A stretch of 64,000 nt of DNA from Aggregatilinea lenta. Lineage in GTDB: Bacteria; Chloroflexota; Anaerolineae; Aggregatilineales; Aggregatilineaceae. Shown piece by piece: positions 16,069 through 29,180 of this stretch (positions within the stretch are counted from its first letter, which is position 1; each line of letters opens with the position of its first letter). The stretch lies in assembly GCF_003569045.1 (NCBI RefSeq), contig NZ_BFCB01000003.1, forward strand, positions 1-64,000, read 5' to 3'. The notes under the pieces are model-generated. The model did not search any database and was not told where the DNA came from. It was given only the letters and a program-made list of their open reading frames with translations. Position numbers and translations under genes: made by a program.

Positions 16069-16203
16069 GGCTGCACGCACCGCCTATTATCTTCTGCCGT
16101 TTGGGCCACGGAATATTGCCGCCTGCCTCAGTAGCGTCACATAAGAAAGCGGTCTATATTTTCAGTCATACTTACCATAAAACCGTTAGTGGGGAGAACA
16201 AAG

Positions 16204-17286
16204 ATGGACCTCATCGATAGGCTTCGTGAACTTTCCGTCCAAATTCCAAAGCAGCAGCAGTACATTTCAACTGAAGAAGCGACCAAAAACGCGCTCGTGA
16301 TGCCGTTTATCAATGCGCTTGGATATAACGTTTTTGATCCCACGGAAGTGACACCCGAACTGGTTGCCGATGTCGGCACGAAGAAGGGTGAAAAGGTCGA
16401 TTACGCTGTTTTGAAGGACAGCAGCCCGATCATCTTGTTTGAAGTGAAGTGCTGCGGCGTCGATCTGAACAACGTGCATGCTTCGCAGCTCTATCGTTAC
16501 TTTTCTGTCACCGCCGCCCGTTTTGGCATTTTGACGGATGGCATCAATTACCATTTTTATTCGGATCTGGACGCTCCCAACAAGATGGATGCCAAGCCGT
16601 TTTTCGTGTTTAACATGCTTGACTTTGACGAAGGCACCGTGGACGAACTTAAGAAGTTCACAAAGTCCGCCTTCGATGTTGATGACATCCTCTCAACGGC
16701 CAACGAACTCAGATACAAGCGCGAAATTAAAGCAATAATGGCGGTTGAGTTTAACGGCCCATCCGAAGAATTTGTCCGTTTTTTCGCTTCGCGGGTGTAT
16801 TCGCGCCGTTTGACGCAAACGGTGCTGGAAGACTTCACGGAGATTACAAAGCAGGCATTTAGGGCGTTCCTCAATGAACGCATTGAAAGCCGCCTCAAGT
16901 CCGCACTTGACAGCGAAGCGCAAGAGATTGTCCCAGAACAATCGAAGCCCACTGAAGCCAATGAAAAGGCCGAGGAAGAGATAGAGCAAGACGGGGTTGT
17001 GACGACGTCGGATGAAAAGGACGCCTATATGATTGTCAAGTCCATTCTGCGTGAGGTTGTCGACGTGAAGCGTATCGCCATGCGAGATGTCCAGACCTAT
17101 TGCAGCGTTCTGCTAGACGATAACAACCGCAAGCCAATTTGCCGGTTCCGCTTCAACAACAAGACTCAGAAGTATCTGGGGATTCCGACCGCTGATAAGC
17201 AGGAGGAAAGGATACCGATCGACGATCTGGATGATATTTTTAAGTATGCCGACCAGTTGAAGACTGTTGTCAACCTCTATCTTTAG
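16204..17286 (+). CDS. Orphan HsdR N-terminal-domain protein (PD-(D/E)xK nuclease-like)
   Basis: The start is ATG 16204 with GGGGAG at 16191-16196; product 360 aa. Residues 20-140 match the type I restriction HsdR N-terminal domain: ISTEEATKNALVMPFINALGYNVFDP, then VDYAVLKD and IILFEVKC, giving the D...ExK nuclease core. The middle is helical and charged. The last 90 residues (about 275-360: DAYMIVKSILREVV to YADQLKTVVNLYL) look like a separate domain, perhaps DNA-binding. No helicase, HsdM or HsdS lies nearby, so this is not a full restriction system. Base composition is visibly less GC-rich than its neighbours, suggesting transfer. A defence or DNA-repair role is possible but unproven. Confidence 0.85.
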   Translation: MDLIDRLRELSVQIPKQQQYISTEEATKNALVMPFINALGYNVFDPTEVTPELVADVGTKKGEKVDYAVLKDSSPIILFEVKCCGVDLNNVHASQLYRYFSVTAARFGILTDGINYHFYSDLDAPNKMDAKPFFVFNMLDFDEGTVDELKKFTKSAFDVDDILSTANELRYKREIKAIMAVEFNGPSEEFVRFFASRVYSRRLTQTVLEDFTEITKQAFRAFLNERIESRLKSALDSEAQEIVPEQSKPTEANEKAEEEIEQDGVVTTSDEKDAYMIVKSILREVVDVKRIAMRDVQTYCSVLLDDNNRKPICRFRFNNKTQKYLGIPTADKQEERIPIDDLDDIFKYADQLKTVVNLYL

Positions 17287-17372: not shown

Positions 17373-17738
17373 TTAAAACGGCAGATCGTCGTCGTCCAGC
17401 GAGGGCGGCATGAAGCTGGCGACCGGCTCGACGCGCAGCCACGTCCGCCCAATACGGAACAGCTCGCCCGGCATCACCTCGACGCGCCCGCTGATCTTTT
17501 CGCCGCGCACGTAGGTGCCGTTGGTACTGCGCAGGTCTTCCAGCCAGAAGTGATCGCCGTCATAGCCGAGCACGGCGTGCTCGCGCGAGACCTGGCTGTC
17601 GTAGTTCAGGCAGACGTCGCTGCCTTCGCGCCGTCCGATGGTGAGTTCGGTGGGTTCGCCGGGGTCCAGCAGCGTCTCGAAAGGCAGCACCGCGCCGTCC
17701 TGCGGCCCGCTCATAATGGCAATAATGATTTCTTCCAT
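17373..17738 (-). CDS. FHA domain protein
   Basis: The 121-aa product is almost entirely one forkhead-associated domain: TIGRREGSD near 34-42, SREHAVLG near 52, and LRSTNGTYVRG near 70, the residues that bind phosphothreonine. The C-terminus is acidic (DDDD). ATG 17738 is chosen because GGAGGA precedes it by 9 bases; a longer open frame runs on in a shadow frame of the kinase gene. It starts 20 bases after the stop of the giant kinase gene, so the two form an operon. It is plausibly the reader of that kinase's phosphorylation; this is inference. Confidence 0.92.
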   Translation of the reverse strand: MEEIIIAIMSGPQDGAVLPFETLLDPGEPTELTIGRREGSDVCLNYDSQVSREHAVLGYDGDHFWLEDLRSTNGTYVRGEKISGRVEVMPGELFRIGRTWLRVEPVASFMPPSLDDDDLPF

Positions 17739-17758
17739 GTGGATGCGTCCTCCGTTCC

Positions 17759-20700
17759 TTACTCGCCCTCGTCGTTTAGATGCTGGCGCGCTTCGGTGCG
17801 CTTTTCGCGCGAGGGCTTGTGTGACGGATCGATCTCCAGGGCCTTGCTGAAGGCGCGCATGGCGTCTTCCCACCGCTGGAGCTGGATGAGCGCTTCGCCC
17901 CGGTTGTGCCAGAACCACACATCGTTGGGGGCGATGCGCGTCGCTTCTTCGTAACAGGCCAGCGCCTCGGTCCAGCGATCGAGGGCGGCAAAAGCCAGCC
18001 CGCGCCCGTTCCAGGCCCAGGCATAGTCGGCGGAAATCGCCAGTGCCTGTTGGTACGCTTTCAACGCGTCCTCGTGGCGATCCAGACGGCGCAGCACCTG
18101 GCCCTTGCGCGCCCAGGCCGCGTCGTTGGTCGGCTCGATGTCCAGCGCGCGCTCGATGACGTCCAGCGCATCGTCGCGGCGGCTCAGAGCCAGCAGCGGC
18201 TCGATCTGGTTGATCCAGTACCACACGCTGCTGGGATCTTCTTCGGCGGCGCGTTCATAACTGCTCAGCGCTTCTTCGCGCTTGTCCATCGCTTCCAGCG
18301 CCAGGCCGCGCCCGTTCCACGCCCAGGCGTAGTGCGGTTCCAGTTTGAGCGCCTGATCGTAGGCGGCGACGCTCTCTTTGTAGCGCCCCAGACGGCGCAG
18401 CGCCTGCCCGTGCTTGGCCCAGCTTTCGGCATGGTCCCGGTTCAGCCGCAGCGCGCGTTCCAACGGCACGAGCGCATCCTCATAACGGTGCATGATGATC
18501 AGCTCGTCAGCCTGGTTATACCAAAACCAGACGTCATCTGGCTGCAAATTGGCCGCCCGGCGGAAGCATGCCAGCGCTTCCTCGTGCCGCCCCAGCGCGC
18601 TGAGCGCCAGCCCGCGCCCGTTCCAGGCCCAGGCATAATCGGGCGACAGCTCGACCGCACGGCTGTAATTGGCGAGCGCTTCTTCGTAGCGCCCCATGCG
18701 GCGCATCGCCTGACCCTGCTTGGCCCACGCCCGCACGTAGCGCGGATCGACGTCCAGCGCGCGGCGCAGGGCTTCCAGCGCCTCGTCGTGACGCTTGAGG
18801 AAGACCAGTGTGTCGCCTTTGTTGTACCAGTAGAGCGGGTTTTGCGGTTCGGCCATCGCCGCGCGTGTATAGGCTTCGACCGCCTCGTTGTAGCGCGCGA
18901 GGATTTCCAGCGCGACGCCGCGCTCGTTCCAGGCCCACGCGTAGCCGGGGTCCAGCTTGACCGCGCGCGCCAGGTACGAGAGCGCCTTTTGCGGGTCGTC
19001 CATGTGGCGGTAGGTGTTGCCCAGCCGCGCCCAACTGCGCGCGTGCTCCGGGTTGACCTGAATCGCGCGTTCCAGCAGCGGGATGGATTCCGCATAGCGT
19101 TCTTGCAGCACCAGCAGGTTACCCTGGTTGTACCAGTGCCACACGTCGTCGGGCGCGATCTCGGCGGCGCGGTGGTACATCTCCAGCGCCTCTTCATAGC
19201 GCGCCAGCCGTTCGAGCACGATGCCGCGCCCGTTGACGGCCCAGGCGTAATCGGGCTTGAGCGCCAGCGCGTGATCGTAGGCTTCCAGCGCAGGCTCGTA
19301 GCGTTCCAAATAGCGATAGACCTGCCCCAGCTTGGCCCACGAATAGGCGTGCTGCGGCGCGACGCGGGTCGACTGCTGCGCGGGCGCGAGCGCCTGCCGG
19401 TAGCGGCCCAACTCGACCAGCATTTCGGCCTGGTTATACCAGTGCCACACCTCGCCGGGCTGGTGGCGCGCCGCCTGCTCGAAGGCTTCCAGCGCTTCGT
19501 CCAGGCGCAGCATCGCTTTCAGCGTCAGGCCCTTGCCGTTCCACGCCCAGGCGTAGGGCGGGTTGAGTTCCAGCGCGCGATTGTAGGCGTTGAGCGCTTC
19601 GGGGAAGCGCTCGGTGGCGCGCAGCACCTGGCCGCGCTTGGCCCAGCTTTCGGCGTGGTTAGGGTCGATTTCCAGCGCGCGGTCGAGCGCGGCCATCGCC
19701 GTGTCGTAATCGCGCAGGGCGTGCAGCGCCTCAGCCTGGTTGTACCACGCCCAGACGTTGCCGGGCTGGAGTTCGGTCGCGGTCTGGTGGGCGGCCAGCG
19801 CGCGCTCGATCTGGTTCAGCCGTTCGAGCACCTGCCCCTTACCGGTCCACGCCCACGCGAAGCGCGGGTTGAGTTCCAGCGCGCGGTCGTAGCTGCCCAG
19901 GGCCTCCTCGTAGCGCGCCAGCAGGCGCAGCGTGCGGCCCTTGCGCGCCCACGCCCATGCCGACTTCGGCTCCAGGTCCAGCACGCGGTCGTAGGCGATC
20001 AGCGCTTCGTCGGCGTAGCCCAGCTCGGTCAGGCTGTAGCCCTTGTCCATCAATTCGCGCAGCTCGAGTGCCGGACCGCTTAGCTCCATGTCCGGCGGCT
20101 TGCCGGTGAGCGCCTCGTACTGCGCGGCGAGCACGTCCACCAGCTCGCCCCAGGTTTGAGGCCGGTCGGCGGGGTCTTTTTCCAGACACTTGAGCGTCAG
20201 CGCGCGCACGTCGTCGGGGATGTCGAGCCGCGTGTCGGGGAAGCACGGCTCCTCGTTCAGGTGCGCGTTGACCCACTCCGGGAAGCGCTTCACGTCGAAG
20301 ATTGTCTGGCGCGTGAGCATCTCGAACAGCACGCAGCCGAACGCGTAAATATCGGAGCGCAGATCGACTGCCTCGGAGCGGCACTGCTCCGGCGACAGGT
20401 AGGGGGCCGTGCCCACGATTGCGCCGTCGCGCGTCAGGCGGCTCGAATCGCCGTTGACCTCTTCGGCGGGCGGAATGTCTTCCAGGTCCAGCGAGCGCAC
20501 CAGCCCGAAGTCGGTGACTTTGGCGATGCCGTCGTGCCGCACCAGGATGTTGGCGGGCTTCAGGTCGCGGTGGACCAGTCCCGGCACCAGCCGGACGGCG
20601 TGCTGCATGCCGAGCGCGACGTGCAGCGCGAATTCCAGCGCGGTCGGCAGGTCGATGCGGTTGTGCCGGATCCAGCTGCGCAGGTCGGGGCCAAGCCCCT

Positions 20701-21769
20701 CCGGGCCGGAAATGTGCTCCAGAATGATGTGCGGGCGGCCCTCGAACTTTTGCACGCGGCGCGCCTGCACGATGTGGCGGTGCTTTTCGAGCCGGATCCA
20801 CGTCAGGGCTTCCTGCGTGAAGCGCGCGACGGCGTTTTCGTTGGTCAGGAAGCGGCTCTGGAAGGTCTTCAGCGCGACGGCCTTGCGGTCCTCGTGGTCG
20901 TAGCACAGGTAGACGATGCCCATGCCGCCGCGCAGCACCTGCGCGACTTCGTAGCGGTCATCGATCTTGTCGCCATAATCGAAGTCGCCCTCGTCTACCC
21001 CCTGGCGCAGCGGGAGTTGGGCCGCCGGGAGCGGGCCGCGCGCGCCCTGCGTCTCTTCCACCTCGACGTGAAACACTTCCGAGCGGTCGGAGCGGGTTTC
21101 GCTCAGCGCGGCGTGTTCGTCGGCGGACAGCACGCCGGACTCGACCTCGCGCGGTTCTTCGCTGCGCGTGGCGATCATGTCCGGGTACATCTCGGTCGCC
21201 ATCTCCGGGTCGGGTGAGGGAGTGCGGTCCGGCATCGGCGTGGCGTCGTCCGTTTGCGGCGGCGCGACGTACCACAGCGCGAGCAGCTGCGCCTCGTCGC
21301 TGAGGCTTTCGACCGGGCTGCCCTGCTCCATTTCGGCCACGGCCCACAGCGCCACGGAGATGTTGCGCCGCGAGGGGGCAGCGCGCGCCATGCGCACGGT
21401 CCACTGCACGTACGCCTCGAAGGCGTTCAGGGCGTGTTCGTGGTCGGAGGGAGTGCCCGCCAGCTCGGCGGCGCGCCGGTACGCCTGGATCGTCTTGCCC
21501 ACGTAGTAAACGCGCATGCGGCGATCCGGCTCGGACAACGAGAGCTGCGCGCACAGATCGCCAATCCCCAGATAGTCGTAGGCGTGCAGCACATCCCGGC
21601 GCAGCGCGAGCCGCCCCAGGCGGCGCACTTCGTCGTTCGGATCGCTGGCGAAGGGATCGGTCTGGTCAGCTTTGCGCCGCCGGGAAAGCAGCTTATGTTC
21701 CTGCTCGGTCGGCAGGGCCAGCGGCGGAATACCAGACTGTGGGACGGGTGGCAGATTATTCGCGGCCAT
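17759..21769 (-). CDS. Giant Ser/Thr protein kinase with 22 TPRs
   Basis: Taking ATG 21769, the product has 1336 aa; no clear ribosome site helps, and in-frame starts exist up to 21889. Residues 1-270 are a helical and acidic region. The kinase domain (about 272-546) shows RGGMGIVYLCY, VALKTF, VHRDLKPANILV, VTDFGLVRS and GTAPYLSPEQ, so all catalytic residues are present. From about 575 to 1315 come 22 TPRs in a strict order of three types: WAKxGQxLR, AWAWNGRGLAL and VWxWYNQ. The three-TPR block occurs seven times. No TM segment is seen, so it is cytoplasmic. The TPR array should bind partner proteins. The FHA gene follows in the same operon. Confidence 0.9.
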   Translation of the reverse strand: MAANNLPPVPQSGIPPLALPTEQEHKLLSRRRKADQTDPFASDPNDEVRRLGRLALRRDVLHAYDYLGIGDLCAQLSLSEPDRRMRVYYVGKTIQAYRRAAELAGTPSDHEHALNAFEAYVQWTVRMARAAPSRRNISVALWAVAEMEQGSPVESLSDEAQLLALWYVAPPQTDDATPMPDRTPSPDPEMATEMYPDMIATRSEEPREVESGVLSADEHAALSETRSDRSEVFHVEVEETQGARGPLPAAQLPLRQGVDEGDFDYGDKIDDRYEVAQVLRGGMGIVYLCYDHEDRKAVALKTFQSRFLTNENAVARFTQEALTWIRLEKHRHIVQARRVQKFEGRPHIILEHISGPEGLGPDLRSWIRHNRIDLPTALEFALHVALGMQHAVRLVPGLVHRDLKPANILVRHDGIAKVTDFGLVRSLDLEDIPPAEEVNGDSSRLTRDGAIVGTAPYLSPEQCRSEAVDLRSDIYAFGCVLFEMLTRQTIFDVKRFPEWVNAHLNEEPCFPDTRLDIPDDVRALTLKCLEKDPADRPQTWGELVDVLAAQYEALTGKPPDMELSGPALELRELMDKGYSLTELGYADEALIAYDRVLDLEPKSAWAWARKGRTLRLLARYEEALGSYDRALELNPRFAWAWTGKGQVLERLNQIERALAAHQTATELQPGNVWAWYNQAEALHALRDYDTAMAALDRALEIDPNHAESWAKRGQVLRATERFPEALNAYNRALELNPPYAWAWNGKGLTLKAMLRLDEALEAFEQAARHQPGEVWHWYNQAEMLVELGRYRQALAPAQQSTRVAPQHAYSWAKLGQVYRYLERYEPALEAYDHALALKPDYAWAVNGRGIVLERLARYEEALEMYHRAAEIAPDDVWHWYNQGNLLVLQERYAESIPLLERAIQVNPEHARSWARLGNTYRHMDDPQKALSYLARAVKLDPGYAWAWNERGVALEILARYNEAVEAYTRAAMAEPQNPLYWYNKGDTLVFLKRHDEALEALRRALDVDPRYVRAWAKQGQAMRRMGRYEEALANYSRAVELSPDYAWAWNGRGLALSALGRHEEALACFRRAANLQPDDVWFWYNQADELIIMHRYEDALVPLERALRLNRDHAESWAKHGQALRRLGRYKESVAAYDQALKLEPHYAWAWNGRGLALEAMDKREEALSSYERAAEEDPSSVWYWINQIEPLLALSRRDDALDVIERALDIEPTNDAAWARKGQVLRRLDRHEDALKAYQQALAISADYAWAWNGRGLAFAALDRWTEALACYEEATRIAPNDVWFWHNRGEALIQLQRWEDAMRAFSKALEIDPSHKPSREKRTEARQHLNDEGE
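17800..19985 (-). repeat. Seven-fold 306-bp (three-TPR) super-repeat inside kinase gene
   Basis: The region coding the TPR array repeats at 34 codons and, at higher order, at 102 codons. The Trp-rich phrases AWAWNGRG and VWxWYNQ recur at fixed spacing seven times. DNA-level similarity between blocks is visible in the repeated GTTCCAGGCCCAGGC-like stretches, but blocks have diverged. Confidence 0.85.
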
Positions 21770-22080: not shown

Positions 22081-24483
<2,403 letters not shown>

Positions 24484-24596
24484 AATGAACTCTTTTCCCG
24501 CTCGTTTGCGATTGGCTTCCAAGTATACCAGGAGACCAAAAGCTCGCATGTTTTGTTAATACAGCATGGTAATCCCCGTGATCGCGCGTGGGGACG

Positions 24597-27119: not shown

Positions 27120-29180
27120 TTAGTCTTCGGGTAGCGCGACAAAGCACTCTCCTGCGGCAATGTCACAGGTTGCCAGCGGGGCCGAGTCGCCCGCGTAATG
27201 CACGGTGAACGTGGCGTCCGGCTGGTCCGCAATCCAGAAATAGCGCGATTCCATGCCCGGCTGGTACCAGCCCAGGAAGTGCGGACAGTCGCCGGAGTCC
27301 GGGGCGCTGCGCGTGACGTCGGCCCGCACGATCTGGTAGCACGACTGGTTCGGCATGGCGACGAGGTTGGCGCTGCTGACGCGCCACAGCCCGGCCTGGA
27401 AGTTATGCGCCGTGCCGTCGCTCTGGGTCTGGGTGAAGACGATCTGGCTGATGTTCTGCGGCTGGCCGGAAACGTTGATCAGCAGGAACTGGTTGTCGTC
27501 GTACAGCAAGCGCAGCGCCGGTTCCGCCGTGGGGTTGAGAGCAGCGACACGTGTCGGCGACGGCGCGTTCCCGGTGGGCGTGGACGACGGTGCGGCGCCG
27601 GTCGCCGGTATGTCGCTCGCGGCTGGCGTGTTGGTCGGCGGCGCGGTGGGCTGCAGCGTGGCGGGCAGTCCGGTGGGTACGGCGAGCGCCGGGGCCGTCG
27701 GGGTGTTCCCGGCGGTGGCGGTGCTGCCGGTGCTTTGGGGTTGGACTGTGCTCGTGGACGCCGCCGTGCGGCTGGGGCTGAGGCGTACGGTGGGTTCCGC
27801 CGTCCGTTCTTCGGTCAGGTCGGCGGTGGACAACCCGGCGATGATCGCCTGCGGACTGCCGCCCTCGGCGGTGGACTCATCCTTGCCGGGGCCGCCCAGG
27901 AACCACGCGGCGACCAGCGCGCCCGTCAGCAGCACGATCGACACCAGCAGCACGCCGATCCGACGCCGCCGGGGGTGGGGGCGCGCGGTGATGCTGGCGC
28001 GCAGCTCGTCGTCGGGATGTGTCGGAGAACGGAACGGTACGGCGTCCGGCCCGGTCATGCCCAGATCGCGCGGGTCGGCATAGTTGTCCAGCATCGAGGT
28101 CAGCGCGTCCTCGTCGATGCCGAGCTGATCTTCGGGCAGGTCGCGGACCGTTTCTTCTTCCTTGCGCGCCTTGTACCGCGCGAAGCGCTGCGCCAGCGCG
28201 CCCGGCTCCGGCGTGGGGTTCGTTTCGGATGGGTCGGGCGTCATGCTCGGTCGTTGGCCGAACCACGGCGTCGGCTCGGTGTCGCCGGACACTGCGAATG
28301 GCGGCGCGTGGGTTGCGGCCACCTTGCCGTACCCCGAATGCTGGAGCGCGCGCTCCAGCGCATCCACTAAATCGCTCCCGGTCGGGTAGCGGTGCTCCGG
28401 CTTCTTGTCCAGCGCGCGCATGATCACCGATTCGATTTCTGGCGGGAGCTGGGGGTTATAGAGCGTCATGGGCGGCGGCGCTTCGTTGAGGTGCTTGAGC
28501 GCCACGCTCATCGCGGAGGGATCGTCGAATGGGACCTTTCCGGCCAGCATCTCGTACAGCACCACGCCCAGCGAATAGAGGTCGCTCTGGGGGACCGCCT
28601 GCGCGGACGAGACCGCCTGCTCCGGTGCAATGTAGTGCGCGCTGCCGAACGTGTCGCCCGTGGTGCCTTCGTGCACGCTCAGCGCCAGGCCGAAGTCCAT
28701 GAGGATCGCGCGCCCAGTGTGCTGTTCGAGCATGATGTTCGAGGGCTTGATGTCGCGGTGGATGACGCCTTGCTCGTGCGCGTAGTCGAGCGCGCCCGCC
28801 AGGTCCCGCACGATGCGCAGGATCTCCGGCACAGGGATGAAGGTGCGGCGCTCGATGTAGCCGTTGAGGTGGCTGCGCAGGTCTTCGCCTTCGAGGAAGA
28901 CCATCGCCATATAATAGATGCCCTCGCTGCGCCCGAACTGGTAGACGCCGACGATGTTCGGGTAGCGGAGCCGGGCGATGGCGCGCGCCTCGATCTGGAA
29001 GCGGCGCGTGTATTCTTCTTCGGTAGTGGTCGCGAAGTCACTGCTGATGACCTTGACGGCGGCGTAGCGGTCGAGGTTCTCGTCGTAGCCCCGGTACACG
29101 CGCGACATCCCACCCCGCCCCAGCAGGTTGAGGATGGTGTAGTCGCCAAGCTTCTTCCCGACCAGGGGATCCGCAGACAT
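27120..29180 (-). CDS. Transmembrane Ser/Thr protein kinase (PknB-like)
   Basis: The 686-aa product has an N-terminal kinase domain (about 12-270) with GRGGMSRVYRGYD, AAVKVI, VIHRDIKPSNIML, MDFGLALS and APEQ, all catalytic motifs intact. A juxtamembrane region leads to one TM helix near 402-420 (IGVLLVSIVLLTGALVAAWFL). Outside follow a Thr/Pro/Ser linker and a C-terminal beta-rich domain of about 140 residues (FLLINVSGQPQNISQIVF, then CYQIV, CPHFLGWY and CDIAAGEC), with four Cys that could form disulfides. This suggests an outside sensor controlling an inside kinase. It ends 50 bases before the glycosyltransferase start. Confidence 0.92.
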   Translation of the reverse strand: MSADPLVGKKLGDYTILNLLGRGGMSRVYRGYDENLDRYAAVKVISSDFATTTEEEYTRRFQIEARAIARLRYPNIVGVYQFGRSEGIYYMAMVFLEGEDLRSHLNGYIERRTFIPVPEILRIVRDLAGALDYAHEQGVIHRDIKPSNIMLEQHTGRAILMDFGLALSVHEGTTGDTFGSAHYIAPEQAVSSAQAVPQSDLYSLGVVLYEMLAGKVPFDDPSAMSVALKHLNEAPPPMTLYNPQLPPEIESVIMRALDKKPEHRYPTGSDLVDALERALQHSGYGKVAATHAPPFAVSGDTEPTPWFGQRPSMTPDPSETNPTPEPGALAQRFARYKARKEEETVRDLPEDQLGIDEDALTSMLDNYADPRDLGMTGPDAVPFRSPTHPDDELRASITARPHPRRRRIGVLLVSIVLLTGALVAAWFLGGPGKDESTAEGGSPQAIIAGLSTADLTEERTAEPTVRLSPSRTAASTSTVQPQSTGSTATAGNTPTAPALAVPTGLPATLQPTAPPTNTPAASDIPATGAAPSSTPTGNAPSPTRVAALNPTAEPALRLLYDDNQFLLINVSGQPQNISQIVFTQTQSDGTAHNFQAGLWRVSSANLVAMPNQSCYQIVRADVTRSAPDSGDCPHFLGWYQPGMESRYFWIADQPDATFTVHYAGDSAPLATCDIAAGECFVALPED

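Follow-up and report, generated by a model that had tools for sequence, protein, structure and literature searches.

A kinase with a seven-block TPR array of three repeat types, and its FHA and ClpC-like neighbours: a candidate phosphothreonine signalling module in Chloroflexota

Introduction

What would a bacterial Ser/Thr kinase do with 22 tetratricopeptide repeats (TPRs) behind its catalytic domain, and with an FHA gene on one side and a ClpC-like gene on the other? The question is raised by the window, which is the whole 64,000-nucleotide stretch of Aggregatilinea lenta DNA that we analysed. A first-pass annotation had read the TPR array as a unit of three repeat types present seven times, had attributed it to duplication of 306-bp blocks that each make one binding surface, and had proposed that the kinase and the adjacent FHA protein form a self-contained pair. 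Judging by titles and the starts of abstracts, we found no paper recognisable as dealing with this kinase, and the set of kinase, FHA and Clp proteins points to a signalling route of its own, so far unstudied. Loci (L), genomes (G), contigs (C) and families (f) are cited by our working labels.

Results

Gene limits and domain layout

The mechanical open reading frame (ORF) of the kinase starts at TTG 21889 and has 1376 residues; the alignment of its relatives starts at ATG 21769, and the coding sequence is taken here from that ATG to the stop at 17759, giving 1336 aa. The features of the locus are:

17759..21769, minus strand: Ser/Thr kinase; from the N terminus, a helical domain, a disordered linker, the kinase domain and 22 TPRs
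21260..21769, minus strand: N-terminal helical domain of about 170 aa, without a Pfam match in the window's member
20990..21268, minus strand: linker, predicted disordered (pLDDT mostly below 50), rich in Thr-x-x-Asp/Glu
21086..21100, minus strand: ETRSD motif in the linker, candidate site of autophosphorylation and FHA docking
20156..20932, minus strand: protein kinase domain with a full set of catalytic residues
19961..20062, minus strand: TPR 0, cap repeat, not part of the A-B-C pattern
19655..19960, minus strand: TPR block 1 (A-B-C)
19349..19654, minus strand: TPR block 2 (A-B-C)
19043..19348, minus strand: TPR block 3 (A-B-C)
18737..19042, minus strand: TPR block 4 (A-B-C), the most divergent block
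18431..18736, minus strand: TPR block 5 (A-B-C)
18125..18430, minus strand: TPR block 6 (A-B-C)
17819..18124, minus strand: TPR block 7 (A-B-C)
17373..17738, minus strand: FHA-only protein of 121 aa, 20 bases from the kinase stop
22081..24549, minus strand: ClpC-like AAA+ unfoldase (822 aa) that has a Clp_N domain and an LGF loop

The kinase domain (Pfam Pkinase, 112 bits) is of the Hanks Ser/Thr type, with the VAIK Lys, αC Glu, HRD Asp and DFG Asp all present, and K341, E360, D442, N447 and D460 (numbered on the 1376-residue ORF) are kept in 38 of 38 aligned kinases, a count made on ORFs of more than 1250 aa with L076 removed by hand and with f7 and fragments outside it. It is PknB-like, its two top structural matches being PknB with its substrate GarA. 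The N-terminal domain drew two weak single-member Pfam matches among 12 members, the 50 listed matches to a model of this domain plus the kinase are all kinases by title, and its profile matched 23 of 396 genomes of the class, every one in the window's order. A defence system was set aside as a candidate, the PADLOC matches of the kinase being to kinase and TPR models at large.

Elsewhere in the window, a second Ser/Thr kinase gene lies near the module (27120-29180, minus strand, 686 aa), a convergent ORF directly after the FHA gene (16189-17286) carries the HSDR_N domain of type I restriction R subunits, and a direct repeat array with a period of about 243 bp occupies 1139-1837.

Periodicity and origin of the array

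From 20062 down to 17819 the kinase gene encodes 22 gapless 34-residue TPRs, one cap followed by seven A-B-C blocks. Mean amino-acid identity between repeats is 0.458 at lag 3 against 0.31 at lag 1 and 0.30 at lag 2, and it declines little along the array, from 0.46 at lag 3 to 0.42 at lag 18. With the cap excluded, identity is 0.454 within types and 0.316 between them, a difference that none of 20000 permutations of the type labels reached, and the nearest neighbour of each of the 21 block repeats is a repeat of the same type, in protein and DNA alike. The lag-3 peak and these neighbours confirm a three-type unit present seven times. The repeats also cluster by type and not by adjacency, the outcome that the first-pass annotation had itself set as the test of 306-bp block duplication, and that origin is upheld.

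The block duplications look old and without recent homogenisation. Identity at third codon positions is 0.485 between repeats of the same type and 0.452 between repeats of different types, and because these positions are nearly as diverged within types as between them, the 306-bp duplication is probably ancient. Recent tandem duplication is ruled out by the identity of the block DNA copies, 53-63%, which is also why Tandem Repeats Finder left the array unreported, and by the output of that program, which within the array gave only a 45-base row of period 21 (19264-19308).

In generic 34-residue arrays from other Chloroflexota (L128-L145, L148-L151) there was neither a comparable excess at lag 3 nor an A-B-C phase. 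The same held for five further TPR proteins encoded by the window's genome, a weak control because their repeats are 40-42 residues long. Outside the order, the phase was sought in 400 genomes drawn from the phylum, of which 20 matched the block profile (E<=1e-25); two of these were the window's genome, one belonged to the same order, and the remaining loci fetched decoded as unphased TPRs, except that L131 and L133 gave no repeats.

Conservation among relatives

At E<=1e-60 the kinase is carried by 41 of 61 genomes, the window's own counted (f1 15/18, f2 6/9, f4 5/5, f7 7/9, f8 8/8), and by none of the 12 genomes of families f3, f5 and f6 together. A scan of 84,980 species with short peptide patterns, which can miss distant members, yielded 37 confirmed loci, all titled Chloroflexi, Anaerolineae or a lower rank of Chloroflexota, some of them Aggregatilineales or Phototrophicales.

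Repeats were decoded with type profiles trained on the window's protein alone and with their order left free. Among 51 unique sequences (the window's own counted; exact duplicates and ORFs under 700 aa excluded, including L031, L064 and L075, where the ORF at the match start is short or broken), 39 decoded as 22 repeats, 38 of them strictly as seven ABC blocks after the cap and one, L050, with a single B called A. L036, L037 and L060 have 21 repeats plus one 33-residue unit. Six members of f7 have 13-18 repeats in a less regular phase, and since this family has fewer blocks, seven are not essential everywhere. The arrays of L038, L083 and L085 are short, the last two running off their contigs.

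The array is old and stable. In an alignment of 31 non-redundant orthologs outside f7, no sequence has more than one gap and a single column is inserted. Compared between species, a block finds its best match in the block of the same number in 2827 of 3255 cases (ORFs of more than 1250 aa without L076, 38 sequences reduced to 31 below 90% identity), so that each block has been kept as itself while the type signature is still common. Repeat trees that concatenate the repeats over 31 species treat related species as independent, which inflates their supports. The L038 kinase, on a draft contig, has 7 TPRs only: repeats 0-4 are joined in phase to repeats 20-21 at a type-B site, with 15 repeats lost in phase. 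A real loss of this kind would show recombination between repeats of the same type; it may instead be an assembly artefact.

Type-defining residues and predicted fold

Over the 31 species the types are best separated by positions 6, 5, 12, 9, 34 and 3. Positions 2, 5, 6, 9, 12 and 13, which we take to be the inner-face, or groove, positions of a TPR, carry on average 1.11 bits of divergence, and the other positions 0.28 (Mann-Whitney p 1.3e-4); strong differences also occur at positions 34 and 3, both outside this chosen set. Type A is marked by A5, K/R6, Q9 (70%) and R12 (99%), type B by W2, N5 (83%) and G6, and type C by W2, Y5 (67%), N6 (90%) and D/E9. TPRs in general often have Asn at position 6, which makes part of the type-C signature generic. 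Inner-face positions in TPRs at large vary with the ligand; in this kinase, positions 2, 5, 6, 9 and 12 rank with those that orthologs conserve best (entropy 0.28-0.90), and position 13 does not (1.60).

The array is predicted to form a regular superhelix (mean pLDDT 95.8, pTM 0.68), and on this model it is continuous in the manner of OGT. The best match by Z is the TPR domain of OGT, 1w3b (Z 33.6, 388 residues aligned, 3.4 Å), and the two closest folds by Z are both OGT TPR domains. Ordered by Foldseek E-value, long eukaryotic TPR proteins of the CTR9/SKI type come first and OGT stands at rank 12, the CTR9/SKI-type matches ahead of it having lower TM-scores. No Asn ladder at position 6 extends across most of the TPRs; N6 is confined to type C.

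One could read the three-TPR periodicity as purely structural, with the three types packing so as to set the pitch of the superhelix and with no repeated ligand site, and the type differences at positions 34, 3 and 24 and the regularity of the predicted fold would suit that reading. The strongest type signal speaks against it, lying as it does at positions 6, 5, 12 and 9, and so does the manner in which SPINDLY binds its substrate; we regard a purely structural periodicity as unlikely. According to PMC9715652, Asn residues at positions 5 and 6 of SPINDLY, together with Y299 and R408, contact the substrate backbone, and by the 34-residue spacing Y299 would fall at position 5 and R408 at position 12. 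From the type residues, these contacts and the OGT-like model, we infer as the best reading a groove that would hold an extended polypeptide. The proposal that each block makes one binding surface is supported by the type-defining residues that recur at groove positions in every block, but the blocks are not interchangeable, each pairing with its counterpart across species.

The linker and the FHA protein

The linkers of 29 aligned proteins (ORFs of more than 1250 aa without L076, L055 and L082, f7 outside the count) contain 69 T..[DE] sites against 39.2 ± 5.2 in shuffled sequence, and every one of the 29 has such a site, the motif being kept while the linker sequence diverges among relatives. 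T..[ILV] and S..[DE] are depleted (10 against 34.7 and 35 against 54.1 when shuffled). In ten taxa with less than 60% array identity the T..[DE] excess persists (27 against 13.5 ± 3.2, reached in 0 of 2000 shuffles), and [DE]T[RQ]x[DE] occurs in 19 of the 29 linkers. The share of Asp and Glu at linker Thr+3 is 0.34, compared with 0.19 in the linker overall, 0.12 at linker Ser+3 and 0.18 at Thr+3 outside the linker; it is also raised at Thr-2 (0.30), Thr-4 (0.28) and Thr+4 (0.25). Acidic Thr+4 numbers 50 sites against 39.3 (z 2.0), and TxxE alone has z 1.7. Six f7 linkers hold 1-4 T..[DE] sites each, as raw counts without a shuffled control.

PMC6468809 divides FHA domains into pTxxD and pTxxI/V classes, and the linker motif, if phosphorylated as we suppose, would be a ligand of the pTxxD class. 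The FHA protein scores 68.5 bits against Pfam FHA, the phosphothreonine-reader domain, and the R, S, R, H and N of its phosphothreonine site are invariant in 46 of 46 sequences. Together with the kinase linker, these residues support, at the level of sequence, the earlier proposal that the protein reads phosphothreonine.

Linkage and fusion with FHA and Clp_N

Linkage was counted over loci with exact duplicates dropped and fragments kept (L085 and L086 are two contigs of one genome). Of the 54 loci that extend far enough, 49 have an FHA gene within 700 bp downstream of the kinase, often overlapping or nearly abutting it, and the linkage that the first-pass annotation had noted in the window is thus kept in relatives. 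In L075 the distance is 922 bp, and no FHA gene is near the kinase in L018, L081, L082 and L084. The genomes of the last three encode an FHA protein 49-54% identical elsewhere; in that of L018 (G010) the best FHA protein is 46% identical and adjoins a Clp_N gene, which makes it the FHA paralogue of the FHA-Clp_N pairs described below.

The product of the ClpC-like gene has a Clp_N domain and two AAA modules and falls below the ClpB, ClpA and ClpV1 cut-offs. Of 43 collected Clp sequences, 32 could be read at the loop site, and 31 of these have [LIVM]GF; we take [LIV]GF to be the ClpP-docking motif. With Clp_N, two AAA modules and the loop, the protein has the feature set of a ClpC/ClpA-type protease ATPase, and the window's genome has one ClpP match. 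In 40 of 49 loci the 1 kb upstream of the kinase holds a ClpC relative; it is not adjacent in the other nine (L017, L019, L020, L033, L038, L060, L064, L070 and L114), four of which come from one genus.

The same parts recur as fusions. Both f6 genomes (L156, L167) have a kinase-Clp_N fusion with an FHA gene directly after it (by tblastn, and by Pfam for L156), and the single f5 genome has one 560-residue ORF that joins Pkinase, Clp_N and FHA (L169:3216-4895). That these parts appear as an operon, as kinase-Clp_N and as kinase-Clp_N-FHA argues for joint action. With a ClpC-like third member in most loci and these fusions in f6 and f5, the notion of a self-contained kinase-FHA pair is probably wrong.

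Around these loci we also observed, in a row at L156:3231-8919, the kinase-Clp_N fusion, the FHA gene, a diverged kinase that carries zinc ribbons, and a protein of 938 aa. The FHA paralogue was paired with a Clp_N gene in 8 of the 8 such loci looked at (L160-L166, L168), and the Clp_N protein beside it carries TCAD9, a term absent from PMC7159879, in the four that were Pfam-tested (L161, L163, L164, L168). In the window's own genome, a 654-aa ORF with Clp_N and TCAD9 follows the FHA paralogue (L161:4286-6247; contig C4, 245285-247246).

The neighbours might be there through operon inheritance alone, the FHA protein reading the substrates of other kinases. In favour of that explanation are the 25 Pkinase matches over the cut-off and the 24 FHA matches in the genome, and the relatives that lack an adjacent ClpC or FHA gene; we nonetheless think it rather improbable, given the kinase-Clp_N-FHA chain in a single ORF, the richness of the kinase linker in Thr-x-x-Asp/Glu, and the presence of an FHA relative in 41 of 41 genomes positive for the kinase (E<=1e-60) against 6 of 20 negative ones, at a cut-off (E<=1e-13) that also admits a paralogue.

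Discussion

Anatomy, conservation, linkage and motif enrichment are the observed basis of the module. We propose that the ClpC-like unfoldase, the Ser/Thr kinase and the FHA reader form a three-gene cytosolic module, and to the scheme as a whole, from groove through linker and FHA protein to ClpC, we give a probability of about 0.5. The TPR array would fold as an OGT/SPINDLY-like superhelix whose inner face repeats a polar and aromatic contact set seven times, and it may hold an extended segment of a client protein close to the kinase domain. In its disordered linker the kinase would autophosphorylate the threonines of Thr-x-x-Asp/Glu motifs, the small FHA protein would dock on the phosphorylated linker, on phosphorylated clients or on both, and the ClpC-like ATPase might then handle the marked clients downstream, which is the weakest step. 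That the array instead binds a repetitive non-protein ligand, for instance a nucleic acid or a glycan with each block taking one unit, is quite improbable: seven equivalent sites with aromatic W2 and Y5, basic K/R6 and R12, and Asn, and the RNA-binding IFIT TPR proteins at ranks 42 and 50 of the structural matches, would fit such a ligand, but acidic D/E9 and E12 keep the groove from being strongly basic, and the two closest folds by Z belong to OGT, whose known ligands are proteins.

A further step, which we put forward tentatively and consider doubtful, is that the three-gene module carries out phosphothreonine-gated Clp degradation, in which the groove would thread clients, Thr-x-x-Asp/Glu sites would be marked, the FHA protein would read them as an adaptor and a dedicated ClpC would unfold them. 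If true, the clients threaded through the seven-site groove of an OGT-like kinase would be unfolded or disordered proteins, and the pathway would be a bacterial analogue of a kinase, phospho-degron reader and protease, its parts brought together by gene linkage in some families and, in others, by fusion of the kinase to Clp_N or to both Clp_N and FHA. As kinase, FHA reader and Clp_N are tied together by operon, by a two-domain fusion beside an FHA gene and by a three-domain fusion, the three arrangements would make phospho-gated proteolysis in Chloroflexota directly testable. The array is also a testable solenoid case, in which seven near-equivalent ligand sites on a kinase would have arisen by duplication of blocks, not of single repeats, and the seven-block array then stayed fixed across four families of one order.

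Among known systems, PknG with GarA/OdhI in actinobacteria comes close: that kinase too is disordered at its N terminus, ends in a TPR domain and has a small FHA protein as a separate partner, and PMC8546545 describes phosphothreonine sites in the disordered region of PknG that recruit its FHA protein; DgcB, according to PMC6733907, uses its own N-terminal phosphopeptide. Unlike PknG, the kinase described here has a helical domain before the linker, 22 TPRs in three-type blocks and a linked ClpC-like gene, and, unlike GarA/OdhI with their N-terminal ETTS phospho-motif, its FHA protein starts without a tail and reaches 30.5 bits where the OdhI cut-off is 200. The superhelix of OGT and SPINDLY is the best structural match by Z and shares groove residues at positions 5, 6 and 12; here it would be attached to a protein kinase, and the continuous Asn ladder gives way to contacts that rotate through three TPR types.

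In the threonine phosphorylation pathway of type VI secretion (PpkA, Fha, ClpV), a kinase and an FHA protein likewise act together. That secretion system includes a Clp-family ATPase. In contrast to it, the Clp protein here scores 688 bits against a ClpV1 cut-off of 884.95, the FHA protein 29.2 against a TagH cut-off of 120.25, and the [LIVM]GF loop is kept. In Listeria, phosphorylation of ReoM reportedly gates degradation by ClpCP, and PrkA is presumably membrane-located, with neither a TPR array nor an FHA partner. Like the module proposed here, PrkA-ReoM-ClpCP is a Ser/Thr kinase pathway linked to ClpC, and, unlike the kinase here, PrkA is a PASTA kinase, according to PMC7286690. In layout the array resembles the PLS-class pentatricopeptide proteins in being built from triplets of repeat types. 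Those proteins, of the PPR family and with RNA as ligand, likewise form arrays in which such a triplet repeats.
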